NCBI GenBank assembly: GCA_001560895.1
Contig: CP014326.1
Coordinates: 1,252,001 to 1,316,000, forward strand
Length of the DNA stretch: 64,000 bases
Reading direction: 5' to 3'
Source: Streptococcus mitis
GTDB taxonomy: Bacteria; Bacillota; Bacilli; Lactobacillales; Streptococcaceae
The notes beneath the pieces were generated by a model that was not told the origin of the DNA, ran no database searches, and saw only the letters and a list, made by a program, of their open reading frames with translations. Each line of letters opens with the position of its first letter. Position 1 is the first letter of the stretch. The translations under genes were made by a program, and so were the position numbers. Of the stretch, positions 49,319 to 59,791 are shown one piece after another.

Positions 49319-50158
49319 TTAAGCAAAGGATTTAGTTCTGTATTGGACAGGACTAAGTCCTTTTAGTTTTACCTTAATTCGTTTGTTGTTGTAGTAATCG
49401 ATATAGTCTATAATGGCTTGTTCCAATTGATTAAGTGATTTAAAGTTTTTCTCATGGCCATAAAACATTTCGGATTTTAAAATGCCAAAGAAAGATTCCA
49501 TCATACCGTTGTCTGGGCTGTTGCCCTTACGTGACATGGATGCTTGAATTCCCTTACTCTCTAGGAACCGATGATAAGAATCGTGTTGGTATTGCCAACC
49601 TTGATCACTATGGAGAATCGTATTCTCGTAGTATTTCTCTGTGAAGGCCTGTTCCAACATCGTTTTTACTTGTTCTAAATTAGGAGAACAAGAAAGATTA
49701 AAAGCAATAATTTCGCTGTTAAAGCCATCTAAAACAGGCGATAAATACAATTTCTGCGTGCTATTTGGAATGGCAAACTCTGTCACATCCGTATAACACT
49801 TTTCCATTGGTCTCGATGCTTCAAACTGGCGTTGAATGAGATTCTCTGCTTTCTTGCCAATCTCTCCTTGGTAGGAAGAATACTTTCGTTTACGGCGAAT
49901 TCGAGCACTTAAACCAAGGATTTTCATCAGACGTTGGACCTTCTTATGGTTTACTATATGACCACGATTCCTCAATTCAAGAGTTATTCGGCGATAGCCA
50001 TAATTTCCTTTGTGCTCAGTAAAAATAGCTTGAATTTCAGCTTTAAGATCTTTATCTTTGTCAAGCCCATCTAGTTCCTTCAACTGATAATAGTAAGTTG
50101 AGCGAGGTAAACGAGCCACTTCAAGAAGTAAATCTAGTCGAAATCCTCCTGAAGCCAT
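49319..50158 (-). CDS. IS3-family transposase OrfB (DDE integrase domain)
   Basis: 279 residues from its ATG, but probably also made as the C-terminal part of an OrfAB fusion. The HTH_21-like N-terminal region ([17 protein letters not shown]) is followed by the rve integrase core. Catalytic residues visible are Asp in C-Y-T-D-V-T-E-F, Asp in L-H-S-D-Q-G-W-Q-Y and Glu in [15 protein letters not shown]-terminal [15 protein letters not shown] is typical. No stop or frameshift is seen, so the element may be active. Confidence 0.93.
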
Positions 50159-50670
50159 TTCTCTAATTGTCTCTGCCTTTCTCGCTGTATGGTTTCGTCC
50201 CTGTCTTCCAGCTCTTTTAACTTTTTTAAGTAAGCCACCTCAGTACGTAAGCGTTCATTCTCCTCTTGGAGTCGCTCTAGTTCTGTCATTTCATCCCAAG
50301 TTTTCTTCCGTTTACGTCCCATTTTAGTTGATCTCCCTCTTGTTTTCTCAACAATAGTATACCCGTTTTTCTTGTATTGTGCTAGCCAATTAAGAAGTAT
50401 CGTACGACTTGGGAGGCCGTATTCAAGAGAAACTCTATCTTTAGTCCAGCCTTCATGTAAGACTTTATGAATCATTTCTTGCTTTAAATCAGGAGAATAG
50501 TAACGATTTTTTCCTTTTTTGACGAACTCTATTCCGTAACGATCAATCAATTTAATCATGTACCTAATATTAGAATTGTTGATCCCAAATTTATTTGAAA
50601 GCTTCTCTATGCTATATCCTTGTTTTCTAAGTTCATAGATCTGAACTTTATCATCATAAGTTAATTTCAT
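50134..50670 (-). CDS. IS3-family transposase OrfA (helix-turn-helix and leucine zipper)
   Basis: 178 residues from the ATG at 50670, which has GGGGTG upstream and lies inside the IS; the open frame extends outside the IS to 50829 but that part is not IS sequence. Two helix-turn-helix units ([14 protein letters not shown] and [13 protein letters not shown]) recognise the ends. A coiled-coil zipper ([21 protein letters not shown]) follows. It overlaps orfB by 25 bases in the -1 frame. Confidence 0.92.
50221..50227 (-). promoter_or_regulatory. Programmed -1 frameshift heptamer A-AAA-AAG in the IS
   Basis: The orfA frame reads TTA-AAA-AAG-TTA, placing A AAA AAG in the zero frame. After a -1 slip the frame stays open through to the orfB ATG, so an OrfAB transposase can be produced, as in IS150. 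Confidence 0.85.
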
Positions 50671-50820
50671 AATAAAAACACCCCAAAAGTTAGATTTTTT
50701 CTGTCTAACTTTTGGGGTGCAGTTCAATACTATGCGTTTTTTTGATTTTAAAGACTTTTTCCAGCCCCGTTTTTTGCTATTTTCGAAGTGATCTTTTTGA
50801 CCAGTCCTATACATCATTTT

Positions 50821-50974
50821 TATACTCAACGAAAATCAAAGAGCAAACTAGGAAACTAACCGCAGGTTGCTCAAAACACTGTTTTGAGGTTGTAGATGAA
50901 ACTAACGAAGTCAGTAACCATACTTACGGCAAGGTGAAGCTGACGTGGTTTGAAGAGATTTTCTAAGAGTATTA
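50821..50974 (-). repeat. BOX element (boxA-B-C, reverse orientation)
   Basis: Full-length BOX read on the minus strand: boxA-like CTCTTCAAACCACGTCAGCT... in the last third (about 50925-50965), boxB around ACTGACTTCGTTAGT, and boxC ending ATTTTCGTTGAGTATA at 50821. It lies between the IS and pdxT. The remaining bases up to 51188 hold no gene or clear hairpin. Confidence 0.93.
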
Positions 50975-51776: not shown

Positions 51777-52652
51777 CTATTTTCCTCGCTCAGCCATGAG
51801 AATTTGGATTTCATTTTCATTGATACCAACCATGGCTTCTCCTAAATCTTCAGAGATTTGAGCTAGGATTTGAGGATTACGGAAGTTAGTCACAGCCTTA
51901 ACAATAGCACTCGCTCGTTTAACAGGATCTCCTGACTTGAAAATACCTGAACCGACAAATACACCTTCTGCCCCTAATTGCATCATTAGCGCAGCATCTG
52001 CTGGCGTTGCAACACCTCCAGCCGCAAAGTTTACAACTGGCAATTTTCCATGTTCATGAACATATTGAACCAATTCTACAGGAACTTGCAAGTCCTTAGC
52101 AGCAACATAAAGTTCGTCCTCACGTAGATTTTGAATGCGGCGAATTTCCTGATTCATCATTCGCATATGGCGAACAGCTTGGACGATATCTCCTGTACCT
52201 GGTTCTCCTTTTGTACGAATCATAGAAGCACCTTCAGCGATACGACGCAAGGCTTCACCCAAATCCTTAGCACCACAGACAAAAGGAACTTGGAATTCTT
52301 TCTTGTCCACATGGAAACGGTCATCAGCTGGAGATAGAACTTCACTCTCATCGATATAGTCAATTTCAATAGCCTCTAAAATCTGAGCTTCCACAAAATG
52401 CCCGATTCTGACCTTGGCCATTACTGGAATGCTAACCGCTTCTTGGATTTCCTTAATCATCTTTGGATCACTCATACGAGAAACACCACCAGCTGCACGA
52501 ATATCAGCCGGAATTCGTTCCAAGGCCATAACAGCTGCCGCACCAGCTGCCTCTGCAATACGGGCCTGTTCAGGATTTTGCACATCCATAATAACCCCGC
52601 CTTTAAGCATCTGTGCCAAGTTTTTATTTAGTTCATAACGATTTTCAGTCAT
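51777..52652 (-). CDS. pdxS: Pyridoxal 5'-phosphate synthase lyase subunit
   Basis: 291 residues from the ATG at 52652 (GAGGA eight bases upstream); a start six codons earlier has no better RBS. TIM-barrel synthase with [22 protein letters not shown], the catalytic lysine in V-M-A-K-V-R-I-G-H and [12 protein letters not shown]. It condenses ribose-5-phosphate, glyceraldehyde-3-phosphate and ammonia into PLP with PdxT. Confidence 0.97.
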
Positions 52653-52757
52653 TTGTTTTATCCTCATCATTTGTATTGGTAGCTACTATTTCATTTTAAG
52701 TCAGATTAGAAGGAATCACAAGATAAAAAAAGGATAATTGTGTGGGTACAGATTAGT

Positions 52758-52794
52758 TAAAAAACTATCTGACCGTTAATCAGGGCCAGATAGT
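52758..52794 (-). terminator. Intrinsic terminator of nox
   Basis: Minus-strand ACTATCTG (52787-52794) pairs with CAGATAGT (52764-52771), followed by T6. Nine bases after the nox stop. Confidence 0.88.
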
Positions 52795-52803
52795 TCATCA
52801 TTT

Positions 52804-54183
52804 TTATTTTTCAGCTGTGAGGGCAGCCATTGTGATGTAGTTGTATGGTTTGTTGAAGTGTGGCAAGAAGAATAGGTCTGTCAATGCCAATTTATCAATT
52901 GTTACATGCTCTTGGATAGCAAGTGAGAACATGTGGATTCCCATACTGATTGCAGAATCGTGTGAAACCATTTGTGCACCAAGAATTTCACGGCTATCTT
53001 TATCAAAGACAATCTTGATTGCTACTTCATGGTTATCATGTTTCATGAATTCTGGTTTTTGAAGATCGTTAAAGCCTGTTTCAGTTGCATTGTAACCTGC
53101 TGCTTTAGCTTTTTCAAGAGTCAAACCAGTTGAAACCATGTGAAGACCGTAGATAGAGATACCGTTTGAACCTTGAACACCGATTCCTTCCAATTCATGT
53201 CCACAAGCGTTGTATGCACCAACGATACCAGTACGAACAGCATTTGAAGCAAGAGCGATGTAGCTTGTGTCTTTACGAGCGTTGTCATAAACAGTCGCAC
53301 AGTCACCTACTGCGTAAACACCTGGGATAGATGTTTCTTGTTTCTTGTCTACAAGGAAGGCACCGTTACGGAAGAGTTCAATCTTACCATCAGCAAGGGC
53401 AGTGTTTGGACGGAAACCAACTGCAAGAACAACCATATCCACGTCAAAGCTTTCTTTGTCAGTAATCAAGCGTTCAACTTTACCGTCACCCTCGATTGCT
53501 TTAACAGTTTGACCAAGTGCCAAGCGGATGTTGTGGTCTTCCAAGTTCTTCGCCATCATTTGTGTGAAGTCTTTGTCATAGTAGCCGTTCAAGACAGTAT
53601 CAACGATATCAACAAGGACAACTTCTTTTCCAAGACGCTCAAAGGCTTCAGCAAGTTCAACACCGATGTAACCACCACCAACAACGGCGATACGGTCAAG
53701 GTGCTTGCTCTTGTCAGCAAGCTTATTGATAACTTCTTCAGCGTTTTGGTACAATTTAACGAATTGTACGTTTTCAAGAGTTGCTTTAAATTCGCGGTTC
53801 CCTTTAACAATTTCAACACCTTCGATTGGTGGCAAGATTGGTGTAGAACCTGTAGCGAAAATCAATTTCTCGTATGATTCTTTGTGCTCTTTTCCTTCAA
53901 CTTCTGCTGTAACTACTTTGTTATCGTAGTCGATTGAAAGAACAGGTGAGTTCATGTAAACTTTAGCACCTTTTGCTTCCAATTTTTCTTTATCAGAATA
54001 GAACAAGCCTTCAGCACCATCAATTTGTTCCCCAATCCAAAGGGCCATTCCACATCCTAGGAAAGAGATGTTAGAGTTTTGGTCAAATACAACGATTTCG
54101 TTCTCATTTCCAAAATTATCCAACATAGTATTAATACATGCTGTACCAGCGTGGTTAGCACCAACTACAACGATTTTACTCAT
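52804..54183 (-). CDS. nox: Water-forming NADH oxidase
   Basis: 459-residue flavoprotein that reduces oxygen to water with NADH, protecting a catalase-negative fermenter and regenerating NAD. The FAD motif is V-V-G-A-N-H-A-G-T (about 6-14), the redox-active cysteine is Cys44 in [10 protein letters not shown], and the NADH motif is [19 protein letters not shown] precedes the C-terminal dimerisation domain. Its promoter contains a perfect cre. Divergent from apbE across 308 bases. Confidence 0.96.
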
Positions 54184-54221
54184 AGAAAAATTCCTACCTT
54201 CAATTTTAAATTTACTCTTCT

Positions 54222-54250
54222 AGTATAACATTTACTGTTAGCGTTTACAA
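54222..54250 (-). promoter_or_regulatory. nox promoter with overlapping cre site
   Basis: Minus-strand -35 TTGTAA (54245-54250), 17-bp spacer, -10 TATACT (54222-54227) with TGT before it. TGTAAACGCTAACA (54236-54249) matches the cre consensus completely and overlaps the -35 and spacer, so CcpA should act on nox. Confidence 0.8.
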
Positions 54251-54372
54251 GAGTTTTGCTAATTTTCCCGATTTTTTTGTAAAAAAATGTAAATAATCTG
54301 TATTTTATCAGCCTTTCTTACAATTACTCTTTATTTTCTGAGCATATTTCTTGACATCTTTACAAATTTTAT

Positions 54373-54401
54373 TTGTGAAAACGCTGACTTTATGGTATGC
54401 T
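54373..54401 (+). promoter_or_regulatory. Promoter of the apbE-flavin reductase operon with cre-like site
   Basis: TTGTGA (54373-54378), 17-bp spacer, TATGCT (54396-54401) with TGG before it. TGAAAACGCTGACT (54376-54389) matches the cre consensus at all but the last position. About 90 bases of leader follow before apbE; no other gene or structure was seen in the gap to nox. Confidence 0.65.
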
Positions 54402-54491
54402 AGTATCATGGAAAGAAAATGTAAGGGGTTAAATGTAATATAAATTTACTATATTTCAGCCTTCTTTTCACAAGAGAAAGGAGTTGGTAGC

Positions 54492-55415
54492 TTGCCTCTT
54501 AGTTCACATTCCGAACGGCTAATGGGGACTACTATCACTATTTCATTAGTAGATGAGCAAGCAGATAGCTTGCTCCAAAAATCCTTTGATTTGCTCAAAG
54601 AGTTAGAATACCGCTTCAATGCCAATAGCCAAGAGTCTGAGTTGATGGAAATCAATCATCAAGCTGGAATAGCTCCAGTCAAAGTTCATCCTGATTTGTT
54701 TGAATTGATTTCACTTGGATTAGATCATAGCTTAGCGCCCTCTAGCCACCTAAACATCAGTATTGGTCCACTAATTCAAACTTGGCGCATCGGTTTTTCA
54801 GATGCCAAAGTTGCCCAACCTCAGGAAATCGAAGAGGTTCTCCCTTTAATCAATCCTCATTATATCGAGTTAGATTCTTCTACTTCTACTGTGTTTCTAA
54901 AACAGAAAGGAATGAAGATAGACCTAGGTTGTTTAGCCAAGGGTTATAGTGCCGATAAGGTTGCCCAATTTCTTAGAGAAGAGGGAGTAACATCTGCCTT
55001 GATTAATCTGGGAGGGAATATCCTGACCATTGGAAAAAATCAGGCAAGAGGAAATCAACCTTGGCAAATCGGGATTCAAGACCCAGCTAATCCGAGGGGA
55101 AATCACTTAATGACCATCCCTGTTGTCGATAAATCTGTCGTGACTTCAGGCATTTATGAACGTCACCTGACTGTCGATGGAAAAGACTACCATCACATTT
55201 TTGACAGCCAAACAGGCTATCCTGTTGAAACGGAACTTGCTAGTCTAACAATCATCTCTGATAAATCAGTCGATGGTGAAATCTGGACAACTCGTCTCTT
55301 TGGAGAAAGACCCGCTTCTATCCTCTGGCAAGTCGAAAGTTTGGAGGGTATCGAAGCTATCCTCATCGATAAAGAAGGTCACCTAAGCTGCTCTTCAGGA
55401 ATTCCTACTCTATAG
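54492..55415 (+). CDS. apbE: ApbE-family FAD:protein FMN transferase
   Basis: 307 residues with a TTG start at 54492 (AAAGGAG eight bases upstream). Characteristic motifs: M-G-T-T-I-T-I near the N-terminus, E-Y-R-F-N-A-N-S (F-x-x-x-x-x-S-E substrate region), D-L-G-C-L-A-K-G-Y-S-A-D, L-I-N-L-G-G-N-I, and H-H-I-F-D-S-Q-T-G-Y-P. ApbE proteins attach FMN through a phosphoester to Ser/Thr of partner proteins, using FAD and Mg. There is no signal peptide or lipobox, unlike most exported ApbEs, so a cytoplasmic target is expected. The likely target is the product of the third gene of this operon. Confidence 0.93.
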   Translation: MPLSSHSERLMGTTITISLVDEQADSLLQKSFDLLKELEYRFNANSQESELMEINHQAGIAPVKVHPDLFELISLGLDHSLAPSSHLNISIGPLIQTWRIGFSDAKVAQPQEIEEVLPLINPHYIELDSSTSTVFLKQKGMKIDLGCLAKGYSADKVAQFLREEGVTSALINLGGNILTIGKNQARGNQPWQIGIQDPANPRGNHLMTIPVVDKSVVTSGIYERHLTVDGKDYHHIFDSQTGYPVETELASLTIISDKSVDGEIWTTRLFGERPASILWQVESLEGIEAILIDKEGHLSCSSGIPTL

Positions 55416-55474
55416 AAACAAATATTTCAATGGAGTTTTAAAATCGTATTATGTAAAAAGAGAAAGGAAATCTC

Positions 55475-56080
55475 ATGTTAAAACTTATTGCTATTGTTGG
55501 AACAAATTCAAAACGTTCTACAAACCGTCAATTGCTTCAATACATGCAAAAACACTTTGCTGACAAAGCTGAAATTGAACTTGTTGAAATCAAGGACATT
55601 CCTGTCTTTAACAAGCCAGCTGACAAGCAAGTACCTGCTGAAATTCTGGAAATTGCTGCTAAAATTGAAGAGGCCGATGGCGTTATTATCGGTACTCCTG
55701 AGTACGACCACTCTATCCCAGCTGTTTTGATGAGCGCTCTTGCTTGGCTGTCATATGGTATTTACCCACTTTTGAACAAACCAATCATGATTACAGGTGC
55801 TTCTTACGGTACACTTGGTTCATCACGCGCCCAATTACAACTTCGTCAAATCTTAAACGCACCAGAAATCAAAGCAAGTGTCCTTCCTGATGAATTCTTG
55901 CTTTCACACTCTCTTCAAGCCTTTAATCCAAGTGGAGATCTAGTAGATCTTGATGTTATTAAAAAACTGGATGCCACTTTTGACGACTTCCGTATCTTTG
56001 TAAAAATTACAGAAAAATTGCGTAACGCACAAGCACTACTTCGCAAAGATGCTGAAGAATTTGACTGGGAAAATTTGTAA
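55475..56080 (+). CDS. NADPH-dependent FMN reductase family protein
   Basis: 201 residues, flavodoxin-like fold. I-V-G-T-N-S-K-R-S-T-N-R-Q-L-L near the N-terminus binds the FMN phosphate, and G-V-I-I-G-T-P-E-Y-D-H-S-I-P-A is the family signature (G-T-P-E-Y). It reduces FMN or small electron acceptors with NAD(P)H. It is 60 bases after apbE and 18 before a longer paralog, preceded by GAAAGGAAA. It probably feeds electrons to, or forms a dimer with, the fusion protein downstream. Confidence 0.88.
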   Translation: MLKLIAIVGTNSKRSTNRQLLQYMQKHFADKAEIELVEIKDIPVFNKPADKQVPAEILEIAAKIEEADGVIIGTPEYDHSIPAVLMSALAWLSYGIYPLLNKPIMITGASYGTLGSSRAQLQLRQILNAPEIKASVLPDEFLLSHSLQAFNPSGDLVDLDVIKKLDATFDDFRIFVKITEKLRNAQALLRKDAEEFDWENL

Positions 56081-56098
56081 GATAGGAGACCAAAAAGA

Positions 56099-57337
56099 AT
56101 GAAATTTGTTGGACTTGTAGGATCAAACTACGATCAATCATACAACCGTAAACTCTTGGAATTCATCCGCCGTCACTTCAAACTCAAATTTGAATTAGAA
56201 GTCCTCGAAATTGACGAAGTTCCAATGTTTAACCAAGACGAAAAATGGGATGAAAGCTTCCAATTGCGTCTCTTGTATAACAGAATTACACGTGCTGATG
56301 GTGTCATTATTGCGACTCCTGAGCACAACCACACAATCTCAGCTTCTCTTAAATCTGTTCTTGAATGGCTTTCATACGAAGTTCATCCATTTGAAAACAA
56401 ACCAGTCATGATTGTGGGTGCTTCTTACTACGACCAAGGTACTTCTCGTGCCCAAGTTCACCTTCGTAAGATTCTTGACGCTCCAGGTGTCAATGCCTAC
56501 ACTCTTCCAGGTAACGAATTCCTCCTTGGTAAAGCCAAAGAAGCTTTTGACGCTGAGGGCAATATCACAAATGAAGGAACTATTAATTTCCTTGAAACAT
56601 GTTTAGACAACTTTGTAAAATATGTGGGAGTCGTTTCAAAATTGAAAAAACCAAAACCAATCGCACCAGAAGATTTATATTGTACAAATCCAATCGCAAC
56701 TACCATTCAAGGAGTTGACCCTGATGATCCTGAATGGGTAGAAAAAGCAGCTGAGCTTGTTGGAGCTGTTTCCGGAGATACTTACGTTAAATTAGACCAC
56801 GGTATCTTGACAGTTAACCAAATTGATATGTTCTTGAAGGCAATGCCATTTGAGTTGACATTTGCAGATGATAATAACCAATTCTTGTACTTTAATAACG
56901 CACATCAAGATCCAAATACAATGTTTGGTAAACGTGTACGTGCTCAATCAGGAAACCGTTTAGGAACTGTACACGGTTCATTGCCAGACTCTAGAATGAA
57001 AAACGTTGAATGGGTTGTCGGCGTATTGCGTAACGGGGATCAAGAATATGTCCGTACAATTGTGCCAGGAACACCAGAAGGCGTTATTAATACCCATAAT
57101 TACCAAGCAATGTACTATCCAGATGGTTCATATGCCGGAATTAATGAAATCATCTTTAATTTCCAACCATGGCTTGACTGGTACCTCAATACAACTGGTC
57201 AACGTCTAGTTGGTGGAAATGCTGCAGCTCCTGCTGGAGGACATGGCGGAGCAGATGCTACATCTGGAGCTTCTGATGCAGGTGATGCTGGAAGTCACGG
57301 TGGTAGCGCAGACGCTACATCTGGAGCAAGTAACTAA
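56099..57337 (+). CDS. FMN reductase / PAS-like fusion with C-terminal ApbE flavinylation motifs
   Basis: 412 residues in three parts. Residues 1-185 are an FMN-reductase domain (V-G-L-V-G-S-N-Y-D-Q-S-Y-N-R, G-V-I-I-A-T-P-E-H-N-H-T-I). Residues about 215-365 look like a PAS_10/DUF438-type sensor or binding domain (P-F-E-L-T-F-A-D-D-N-N-Q-F-L-Y-F-N-N, F-G-K-R-V). Residues 372-412 are a flexible Gly/Ala/His tail with two copies of D-A-T-S-G-A-S (386-392 and 405-411). That repeat fits the Dxx(S/T)GA(S/T) consensus for covalent FMN attachment by ApbE. No signal peptide. An intrinsic terminator follows. The function is probably a soluble NAD(P)H-driven redox protein; the acceptor is unknown. Confidence 0.82.
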   Translation: MKFVGLVGSNYDQSYNRKLLEFIRRHFKLKFELEVLEIDEVPMFNQDEKWDESFQLRLLYNRITRADGVIIATPEHNHTISASLKSVLEWLSYEVHPFENKPVMIVGASYYDQGTSRAQVHLRKILDAPGVNAYTLPGNEFLLGKAKEAFDAEGNITNEGTINFLETCLDNFVKYVGVVSKLKKPKPIAPEDLYCTNPIATTIQGVDPDDPEWVEKAAELVGAVSGDTYVKLDHGILTVNQIDMFLKAMPFELTFADDNNQFLYFNNAHQDPNTMFGKRVRAQSGNRLGTVHGSLPDSRMKNVEWVVGVLRNGDQEYVRTIVPGTPEGVINTHNYQAMYYPDGSYAGINEIIFNFQPWLDWYLNTTGQRLVGGNAAAPAGGHGGADATSGASDAGDAGSHGGSADATSGASN

Positions 57338-57344
57338 TACTTTT

Positions 57345-57368
57345 AGGAACCATCTTGGTTCCTTTTTA
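57345..57368 (+). terminator. Intrinsic terminator of the apbE operon
   Basis: AGGAACCA (57345-57352) pairs with TGGTTCCT (57356-57363), three-base loop, then T4. Seven bases after the stop codon. Confidence 0.9.
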
Positions 57369-57374
57369 AGTGAC

Positions 57375-57407
57375 AAAAGACTAGCAATTTGTGTTTGCTA
57401 GTCTTTT
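57375..57407. other. Perfect 13-bp hairpin between converging genes
   Basis: AAAAGACTAGCAA (57375-57387) pairs perfectly with TTGCTAGTCTTTT (57395-57407). The arm itself ends in TTTT, so it may be a second, bidirectional terminator for the apbE operon and the minus-strand DUF896 gene. Confidence 0.65.
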
Positions 57408-57455
57408 GGTTATTATTTCATCTATCTTTATTAAAGTTAGATGCAGAAAATTATA

Positions 57456-57713
57456 TTATGAATTTGGGTCATCGAGACTACGACCGTGTAAACCTTTTTC
57501 ACGTTGGACTTGGCGTAGTTTTTCTGGTGTAACATCGTTTCCTTCTTCGTCCACAATTTTGATTCCCTCAATGTGGTGACGAACAGAGCGACGATAACCT
57601 TCGATGTACTCCTCACGTAGTTTAGCTTGTTCCACTTTTTCTTCTGGTGTCAAGCCTTCTGCTTTTTTCTTTTTAGCAAGCTCATTGATACGATCAATTT
57701 TTTTCTGATCCAT
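57456..57713 (-). CDS. DUF896 family small protein
   Basis: 85 residues, charged and helical: [13 protein letters not shown] followed by [16 protein letters not shown] and [12 protein letters not shown], the DUF896 (YnzC-like) signature. Members are small cytoplasmic proteins; YnzC has been linked to the SOS/LexA region in Bacillus, but the role is unclear. It lies downstream of glyS on the same strand, 41 bases away, and may share its transcript. Confidence 0.85.
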
Positions 57714-57754
57714 TTCTTCTCCTTTGTGATAAGATAAAGTCCGTTTATCAAATT

Positions 57755-59791
57755 TTATTTAGTGTTAATTTGGTTAAAACGTGCAAGTTTAGCTGCTTTT
57801 TGAGTTAAATGAGACAAGATAGCCAAGCGATTTTGACGAACAGCCTGATCTTCTGCCATTACCATGGTATTTTCAAAGAAAGCATCAATAATTGGGCTAA
57901 GCGCAAAGAGTTGTTCTAATTGCTGACTTACAGCACCTGACAAAACGAGTGATTCTACTGCTTCTGCCAAGGCTTTCTCTTCTTCATTTTCAAAGAGAGC
58001 TGGATCAACTGTAGCAACTCCTTCTGCCTTCTCAGCCAAATTAAAGGCACGAGAAAGTGATTCAACAGATGGTTTAAAGTCTGCTCCCTTGCTTGCTTCT
58101 ACGAGAGCACTTGCTGCTTCCAACATATCTGCCACAACAAAGTTTGATCCTGCAAGAACGGCTTCCTTAATATCTTTTGGAGTAGAACCCATCATCTTAT
58201 CAACACGAGCCTTGATAAAATCCATAACCTCTGCCTTATTTTCATAAGTCAAGCTGTCAAATTTCAATGCATAAAGGCTATCAATCAGCTCATCCATAGC
58301 AATATGCCAACCAAAGGCATCCAAGATACGAACTACACCTTGAGTTGCACGACGAAGGGCATAAGGGTCATTAGAACCTGATGGAATCAAACCTACTGAG
58401 AAGAAACTCAAAATCGTATCCAATTTATCTGCAATGGCAAGCACTGCACCGACCTTACTCTCTGGAAGTTCTCCTTCGGCTGATGTAGGCATGTAGTGTT
58501 CACGAATAGCAGTTGCCACCGCTGGAGTTTCACCAGCAAGAAGGGCATATTTTTCACCCATAATTCCTTGGAGTTCGTCAAACTCACCAACCATACCTGT
58601 CAACAAGTCAAACTTGTAAATAGCAGCTGCACGGGCTAGGTCAATCGTTTCATCAGCTGACAAACCAGCTTTTTCTGCCAAGAGAATAGCAATCTGACCC
58701 GTACGAATCATGTGTTCACGAAGGGAACCAATTTTCTCATGGAAGGTCACATTGTTTAATTTTTCAACAAGATCAGAAATAACTAATTTTTGATCTTCAC
58801 GCCAGAAGAATTCACCGTCTTCCAAACGAGCTACCAAAACTTTTTCATTTCCTTTAATGACATTTTCCAAATGCTCTGCATTTCCGTTACGAACAGAAAT
58901 GAAGTTTGGCAATAGTTTTCCATCTTGATCACGGACAACAAAGTAACGTTGGTGTTCTTTCATCGAAGTCACCAAGACTTCTTCTGGAACTTCAAGGTAT
59001 TTAGCATCAAAACTTCCCATAAAGGCAGTTGGATATTCAACCAAGTTCAAGACTTCATTAAGCAAATCAGCATCAATTTCGATACGTACACCATGTTCAG
59101 CTTCGATTGCTTTGATTTGGTCAACAATCATTTGCTCACGTTCACGTGGATCTGCAATTACAAACTGAGCACGAAGGTCTTCTTCATAGCTCAATGCTGA
59201 CTGAATCTTAGTTTCTTTCCCCAAGAAACGGTGACCACGGCTCACACGACCTCCCTTGATATCAAGGAAATCCAAATCAAACTCTTCTTCATCTAGAAGA
59301 ACAGTCAAAGTGTGAACAGGACGAATGTATTCAAAACTATTTCCAGCCCAGTGCATGCTGACAGGGAAAGTCAATGACTTCAAGACATCTACAACACCAG
59401 GAACAATGGCTTCAACTGCTTGACCAATTTCTTCCTTGGTAACATAGACATATTCTTCACCCTTGATTTCACGGAATTCGATATCTTCAACCGTCAAGCC
59501 TTTTCCACGGACAAATCCTTGAGCTGCTTTAGTGAAGTTTCCATCACTATCCAAGGCAATTTTCTTGGCTGGCCCCTTAAAATCTTCTGTCAAATCAGAC
59601 TGTTTGTCTGCAAGACCAGTTACACGAACAGCCAAACGACGTGGTGTTGAGAAGGTCTGAATAGCTTCAAAAGACAGGCGGTTTTCCTTGAGAAAGGCTG
59701 CCATTTTTTCGCCTAGTTGTTTTTCACTTGGTGTGACAACATAGGCTGGTAATTCTTCAAGACCGAGTTCTACTAATAAGTTTTTTGTCAT
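57755..59791 (-). CDS. glyS: Glycyl-tRNA synthetase beta subunit
   Basis: 678 residues. N-terminal [13 protein letters not shown] and [10 protein letters not shown] are the GlyS signature. A middle B3/B4-like and HD-type region includes [11 protein letters not shown] and [12 protein letters not shown]; the C-terminal part is a DALR-like anticodon-binding domain. With GlyQ it forms the alpha2-beta2 enzyme that charges tRNA-Gly. It follows glyQ on the same strand but after 365 bases holding a BOX element. Confidence 0.97.

Follow-up and report, generated by a model that had tools for sequence, protein, structure and literature searches.

The operon formed by apbE and two FMN_red genes at positions 54492 to 57337 of a 64,000-nucleotide stretch of the Streptococcus mitis genome (hereafter the window; single contig of 2.17 Mb) probably specifies an NADH-fed, cytosolic flavin oxidoreductase of the kind formed by FRedA, FRedB and LjPAS in Lactobacillus johnsonii, with covalently tethered flavin mononucleotide (FMN) and with O2, reduced to H2O2, as its likeliest acceptor. 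Judged from its sequence and those of its relatives, it is a real, widespread and selected cytosolic flavinylation system. The parts have been known separately; what is new is the joining of them, the PAS-bearing multi-flavin form of streptococci and the predicted ApbE dependence of the lactobacillar H2O2 system.

On the plus strand, apbE (54492..55415), which encodes a flavin adenine dinucleotide (FAD):protein FMN transferase without an export signal, is followed by the gene of a 201-residue, FRedA-like FMN_red paralogue (55475..56080; Pfam FMN_red, 3.5e-35), by that of a 412-residue fusion protein (56099..57337) and by terminator-like stem-loops (57345..57363 on the plus strand and 57374-57408; four such sites were found against a shuffle mean of 2.7), and the nox gene is divergent. 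The fusion consists of an FMN_red domain (residues 1-147, 56099..56539; Pfam, E 8.3e-34), a PAS_10 domain (residues 242-355, 56822..57163; Pfam, E 3.2e-21) for which the best solved chain is 2qkp, and a tail rich in Gly, Ala, Asp and Ser. In this tail the ApbE motif D-x-x-[ST]-G-A-[ST] occurs twice as DATSGAS, at residues 386-392 (57254..57274, plus strand) and 405-411 (57311..57331, plus strand), with Ser392 and Ser411 as predicted acceptors. An earlier reading made from the letters alone (the sequence-only reading) had described this gene order, a PAS-like domain and a motif-bearing tail in the second paralogue, and a terminator; the Pfam domains, the two motifs and the stems bear this out. 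The nearest homologue of the fusion among the matches listed is 98% identical and labelled S. mitis.

The apbE gene starts with a TTG codon, and an AGGAG ends 8 bases upstream of it. Its product matches ApbE (PF02424) with 260 bits against a curated cut-off of 25.6, spanning domain positions 1-266 of 266, and is the sole ApbE match in the genome. It keeps SGIYER and HIFDSQTGYP and is predicted to be active in FMN transfer; its DLG site reads DLGCLAKGY, and many relatives have DLGALAKGY. With a simple script, no lipobox was found on this protein and its N-terminal hydropathy was low. Applied to other streptococci, the identical script, which reported only loci where its pattern found the ApbE frame, flagged six longer ApbE proteins with high hydropathy and an evident lipobox; it thus separates exported from cytosolic ApbE. 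The protein is supported by its sequence as a cytosolic flavinylation enzyme, in agreement with the sequence-only reading. An exported electron-transfer system of the Nqr, Rnf or extracellular electron transfer type was considered and rejected, because this ApbE has no lipobox and the genome has no FMN_bind match.

The degenerate DNA pattern of the motif has 14 matches in the genome, two of them in the fusion. Three further matches read as D-x-x-[ST]-G-A-[ST], within open frames of 17, 28 and 38 codons only, and nine do not read as the motif (one DSVTGAC in a 32-codon frame; eight, decoded by eye, that are interrupted by a stop or have neither Ser nor Thr where the motif calls for one). Other flavinylation targets in this genome were therefore rejected, as the remaining matches misread the motif or sit in frames of 17-38 codons. 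The fusion is the one credible motif protein that this genome encodes and lies in the operon of its only ApbE, which agrees with the earlier proposal that it is the ApbE target.

The tail motif is clearly under purifying selection. The homologue set comprised the query and 120 listed of 1349 matches, and one to three motifs are found in 120 of these 121 long proteins. The shuffle test drew on 138 proteins, one being left out for want of a tail start: 103 distinct tails hold 201 motifs, compared with 1.07 on average and never more than 6 when each tail was shuffled 500 times, and at least one exact motif is present in 100 of the 103. At the codon level, among the 30 Streptococcus loci that match best (with that of this genome), none of the seven codons of motif 1 shows an amino-acid change and four vary synonymously. 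In motif 2 of the same loci, Ser411 is kept in 30/30 and a single residue varies, Ser408, which is Ala in three. The amino acid varies in 12 of 26 codons of the tail spacers. Similarly, Asp386, Asp405 and Ala410 are invariant in an alignment of 27 Lactobacillales sequences, in which the rest of the tail is gapped. The conclusion follows from the excess of motifs over the roughly one expected by shuffling, together with the almost purely synonymous variation of the motif codons amid variable spacers.

Across 197 Streptococcus genomes (fusion counted at E <= 1e-168, three genomes being assigned by elimination), the fusion is present in 158, all of which have ApbE, a co-occurrence that the sequence-only reading had proposed to look for. 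ApbE is found in 193 of the 197, and the four ApbE-negative genomes are all without a full fusion. These counts are not probabilities, since related genomes are non-independent. In the 30 best-matching loci, apbE is always co-located with the fusion, and the small FMN_red is likewise present in 30/30. The same reading had held that a wide occurrence of apbE without this partner would speak against it. In the genomes surveyed, 158 of the 193 ApbE-positive ones have the fusion and 35 do not have it in full, and most of the latter have another explanation. Indeed, 27 have an FMN_bind match (one under the curated cut-off), three more show broken genes (in G155 apbE is split in two, and in G109 and G134 genes are interrupted or incomplete) and two, G156 and G159, encode a divergent PAS protein that is 22% identical to the PAS part of the fusion and bears a C-terminal D[TV]TSGAS; three are left unexplained. 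Diverged PAS-only proteins with D[TV]TSGAS at their end are seen at L258:2318-3010 (minus strand) and L270:1256-1897 (plus strand), in two streptococci with a cytosolic apbE and no fusion, and Pfam detects PAS_10 in them barely or not at all.

The nearest characterised system is that of L. johnsonii (LJ_0548/LJ_0549), which likewise has a PAS_10 protein and two FMN_red paralogues encoded one after the other (PMC4500961). FRedA and FRedB are obligate partners in a heterodimer that has two FMN sites and oxidises NADH, not NADPH, passing electrons to FMN or FAD and to O2; it yields 0.56 H2O2 per NADH, binds FMN weakly (KD ~2 uM) and has a Km for FMN as substrate of ~20 uM (PMC4500961). The streptococcal operon differs in that the PAS domain is fused to the second FMN_red and apbE lies inside the operon. 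PAS fusions in other species were already remarked on in that paper, a figure legend of which gives Lp2732 and EF1227. We compared by eye the FMN-pocket residues reported there (Thr9/Ser9, Ser14, Phe44, Glu73 and Asp75/Gln75; PMC4500961): the small FMN_red has Thr, Ser, Phe, Glu and Asp at the corresponding places, with the numbering shifted by 1-2, and the fusion has Ser9, Ser14, Phe44 and Glu, with Asn where FRedB has Gln. Through the homologues of the operon, the role in NADH or oxygen balance suggested by the sequence-only reading gains support. Its soluble electron shuttle is upheld as far as a cytosolic flavin system goes, but was too vague, as the nearest characterised enzyme uses NADH rather than NADPH and makes H2O2. 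Pneumococcal FlaR was rejected as an equivalent of the fusion, since it is a 17.2 kDa protein with a different locus tag (PMC5762878).

Preincubated with FRedB, LjPAS halves the initial rate, whereas no significant effect is seen once the dimer has formed with FMN; the protein was produced in E. coli with no ApbE co-expressed, and the abstract and the results of the paper conflict on the effect of oxygen on ljpas expression (PMC4500961). The published LjPAS primers place MAEPKWL at the N terminus and SGASEY at the C terminus of the protein (PMC4500961). At one lactobacillar locus of our set (L201), three of the four primers match perfectly and the remaining one has a single mismatch, and the LjPAS-type protein encoded there carries the motifs DATTGAT, DTATGAS and DTSSGAS. 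From the primer matches and these three motifs, LjPAS is predicted to be an ApbE substrate, apparently not recognised as such so far: the text of PMC4500961 contains none of the words ApbE, covalent and flavinyl. In the openly licensed literature, we found no paper linking ApbE with an FMN reductase and PAS system, which does not prove its absence in print.

The family extends widely in the Lactobacillales, where matches to the fusion at E <= 1e-70 are present in 120 of 295 genomes and 40 of 74 genera. Outside Streptococcus, the small FMN_red lies directly upstream of the fusion in all 22 fetched loci, and apbE is within the fetched stretch in 17. The number of tail motifs rises to six (L153). 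Two proteins of 882-894 residues, L210:4497-7145 (minus strand) and L211:5317-8001 (plus strand), combine one FMN_red with three PAS_10 units and carry motifs before and between the PAS units, and in L210 also after them. Second, standalone PAS proteins with ApbE motifs of their own are encoded at L214:7473-8165 (minus strand) and L200:5735-6271 (plus strand), in genomes that already hold a fusion or an LjPAS-type protein. The published L. johnsonii primers match in one genus of the sample (g9), which is therefore read as Lactobacillus. Here the PAS part stands as a protein of its own, ~245 residues long; it bears two or three motifs in 10 of 12 loci, and ApbE is present in all 12 genomes. In Lactococcus and its close kin, the FMN_red itself bears an exact motif in 10 of 11 loci, with no PAS in the chain; apbE adjoins this gene in 11/11, and a separate PAS_10 gene adjoins apbE in three (L116, L124 and L129). 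These arrangements suggest that an FMN_red core, a tethered flavin and PAS_10 tend to form a set, no matter which chain bears the motif. In another streptococcus, an 803-residue FMN_red-FMN_bind-FAD_binding_2 protein (L132:4401-6812, plus strand) has a small FMN_red partner (L132:3767-4375, plus strand). Its head is 53% identical to the FMN_red head of the fusion, and similar long frames are listed in other streptococci; the same head on such a protein suggests that the FMN_red unit feeds other domains too.

The novelty implied by the sequence-only reading must be qualified, as flavinylated FMN_red tails are known in lactococci (PMC11334425) and the FMN_red pair with a PAS protein in L. johnsonii (PMC4500961). 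The FMN_red tails of L. lactis and L. taiwanensis were shown to be flavinylated by ultraviolet gels with alanine mutants, and FMN_red proteins with motif tails encoded beside apbE are described as occurring predominantly in Firmicutes (PMC11334425). The lactococcal FMN_red resembles the fusion in its C-terminal extension with one or two ApbE motifs and in its gene lying beside apbE (PMC11334425); by these two features the fusion fits the lactococcal class, and it is predicted to carry covalent FMN. The L. taiwanensis genome holds a locus of the lactococcal build (L161, on the same contig stretch as L125), whose protein, unlike the fusion, has no PAS domain in the chain. Moreover, that paper frames its topic as extracytosolic, in contrast to the cytosolic reading given here, and a word search of its main text retrieved no streptococci, lactobacilli, L. 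johnsonii or H2O2 (PMC11334425). By its description, HcrAB of L. plantarum is also similar, in that a small COG0431 protein has a larger partner with a COG0431 domain, but the larger protein has further flavin-binding parts and serves hydroxycinnamate reduction (PMC10295242); the word covalent does not occur in that paper. In Klebsiella pneumoniae, an ApbE without a signal peptide similarly serves a soluble cytoplasmic enzyme, although that target is a fumarate reductase (PMC12052999), and the genome analysed here has no FMN_bind match. The passages of PMC8238504 and PMC7074142 do not cover the operon.

From these comparisons we infer the following mechanism. The small FMN_red would pair with the fusion's FMN_red domain into an obligate heterodimer whose interface holds two FMN sites, and ApbE would transfer FMN from FAD to Ser392 and Ser411 of a flexible tail; the ApbE motif is known to function as an N- or C-terminal tag (PMC10722498). 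The tethered FMNs would stand in for free FMN as substrate or cofactor, dipping into the dimer sites, accepting electrons from NADH and passing them on. ApbE supplying the flavin of the dimer seems the simplest reading, because attachment to the tail would keep FMN highly concentrated locally and prevent its loss. The final acceptor would most likely be O2, giving H2O2; a protein with three covalent FMNs is able to pass electrons to O2 (PMC10339131). PAS_10 may dock the tail flavin or gate it, depending on redox state or on a ligand; the part of PMC10101095 that bears on PAS_10 does not settle its ligand.

Other roles for the tethered flavins should be considered. It is possible, though we consider it rather improbable, that they serve an acceptor other than O2, in which case PAS_10 or the tail would pass electrons to a small organic substrate, to iron or to a partner protein, a task that FMN_bind and FAD_binding_2 domains may have in the larger reductases sharing this head. 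The 803-residue protein and its upstream small FMN_red are in favour of this idea, and so is HcrAB, which reduces hydroxycinnamates with NADH and FMN (PMC10295242). On the other side, we know of no catalytically active PAS_10 domain, and no substrate gene is linked to the operon. FRedA/B, which has no terminal domain, already reduces O2 (PMC4500961). A regulatory role instead of a carrier role seems unlikely: the PAS domain would sense redox state or a ligand and slow the assembly of the FMN_red dimer, the covalent FMN being a sensing cofactor rather than a carrier. PAS folds often bind flavin, and in the split and repeated forms a motif comes after the PAS, both of which speak for such a role. 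The lactococcal relatives, however, bear the motif on FMN_red, away from PAS, and one to six tandem motifs fit carriers better than a single sensor. The halved initial rate after preincubation of LjPAS with FRedB also agrees with regulation, yet the formed enzyme was unaffected, albeit by an LjPAS made in E. coli without ApbE (PMC4500961).

That the tail motif is a decoration of low importance, flavinylated by ApbE while the function is independent of it, is very unlikely. Free FMN supports FRedA/B (PMC4500961) and one of the motifs is often degenerate (for example DATSSAS or DATAGAS), as would be expected of a decoration. Nevertheless, the motif is under purifying selection within a variable tail, at least one copy is kept in all but one of the listed proteins, and no fusion-bearing Streptococcus genome has lost ApbE.

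Several observations weigh against an oxidoreductase that works through its tethered flavin. The exact motif is missing from 3 of the 103 distinct tails; P0017, L143 and L148 carry near-motifs such as DATSSAS and DAVSSAS. Among the lactobacillar PAS proteins, L208 has lost its motifs and L209 keeps a single one, the tails of both being changed. At least 4 of the 158 streptococcal fusions look shortened or interrupted (G014, G015, G064 and G077), and 5 of the 22 non-streptococcal loci have no apbE nearby. The motif is on FMN_red in lactococci but on PAS in lactobacilli; therefore, the tail has no single fixed place. In addition, the three unexplained streptococci (G044, G088 and G160) have a cytosolic apbE and no recognisable target among all decoded pattern matches. 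By eye, the matches that read as the motif in these genomes are in transport-binding proteins, PurR, PheT, a glutamate synthase and a LysM lysin, or else in frames of at most 81 codons; copies of a DPKSGAS match already seen in the S. mitis genome were left out of this look-up. The neighbours of apbE there (L136, L137 and L140) are presumably tdk-prfA-prmC, which they resemble by size and order. Finally, the basic activity of FRedA/B requires no tether, since free FMN supported it in the absence of ApbE (PMC4500961).

A broader proposal is put forward more tentatively, as one that we regard as nearly an even matter: the H2O2-generating system of the Lactobacillus acidophilus group could form, together with the streptococcal and enterococcal fusions, one ApbE-dependent cytosolic swinging-flavin class, in which one to six FMNs on a disordered tail would carry electrons from an NADH-fed heterodimer to O2 or to a PAS-bound acceptor, in the manner of lipoyl or biotin arms. 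If true, covalent flavins would be routine in the cytosolic oxygen and NADH handling of lactic acid bacteria, beyond export systems, and the purpose of most streptococcal ApbE proteins would be accounted for. FRedA/B and LjPAS would then have been characterised minus their covalent cofactor, and the unsettled role of the PAS protein would become directly testable.

Regarding the regulation of the operon, its divergent neighbour is nox (52804..54183, minus strand), which encodes an H2O-forming NADH oxidase (NCBIfam NOXase_Strep, 763.8 bits against a cut-off of 600). Eight matches to a catabolite-responsive element (cre) consensus are present in the window. Two of them lie between nox and apbE: one on the nox side (54236..54249, minus strand) overlaps the -35 of the predicted nox promoter (54250-54222), and one on the apbE side (54376..54389, plus strand) overlaps a hand-called -35. 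The latter belongs to a putative apbE promoter, TTGTGA-17-TATGCT with a TG before the -10 (54373..54401, plus strand). The single promoter that the sequence-only reading had placed before apbE stands as this hand reading with 8/12 matches, but was not listed by the promoter scan at its threshold of 9/12, and the regional promoter count (9) is close to the shuffle mean (9.2). Twenty loci were fetched for the conservation of the cre-like sites, which are kept on both sides in all 16 with nox beside apbE; the other four have no nox match, and two of these have no apbE match either. The cre-like sites shared with nox in the sequence-only reading are thus recovered and conserved. Since the predicted and the hand-called promoter each overlap one of these sites, and the pair is conserved in 16/16 loci with nox, CcpA may co-ordinate the flavin enzyme operon with Nox through these putative sites, which would link its expression to sugar supply. 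No RNA element matched Rfam at gathering thresholds in positions 52000-58000 of the window. On the far side of nox, at 49319-50829 (minus strand), two overlapping open reading frames adjoining pdxT resemble, by eye, an IS3-type transposase pair.

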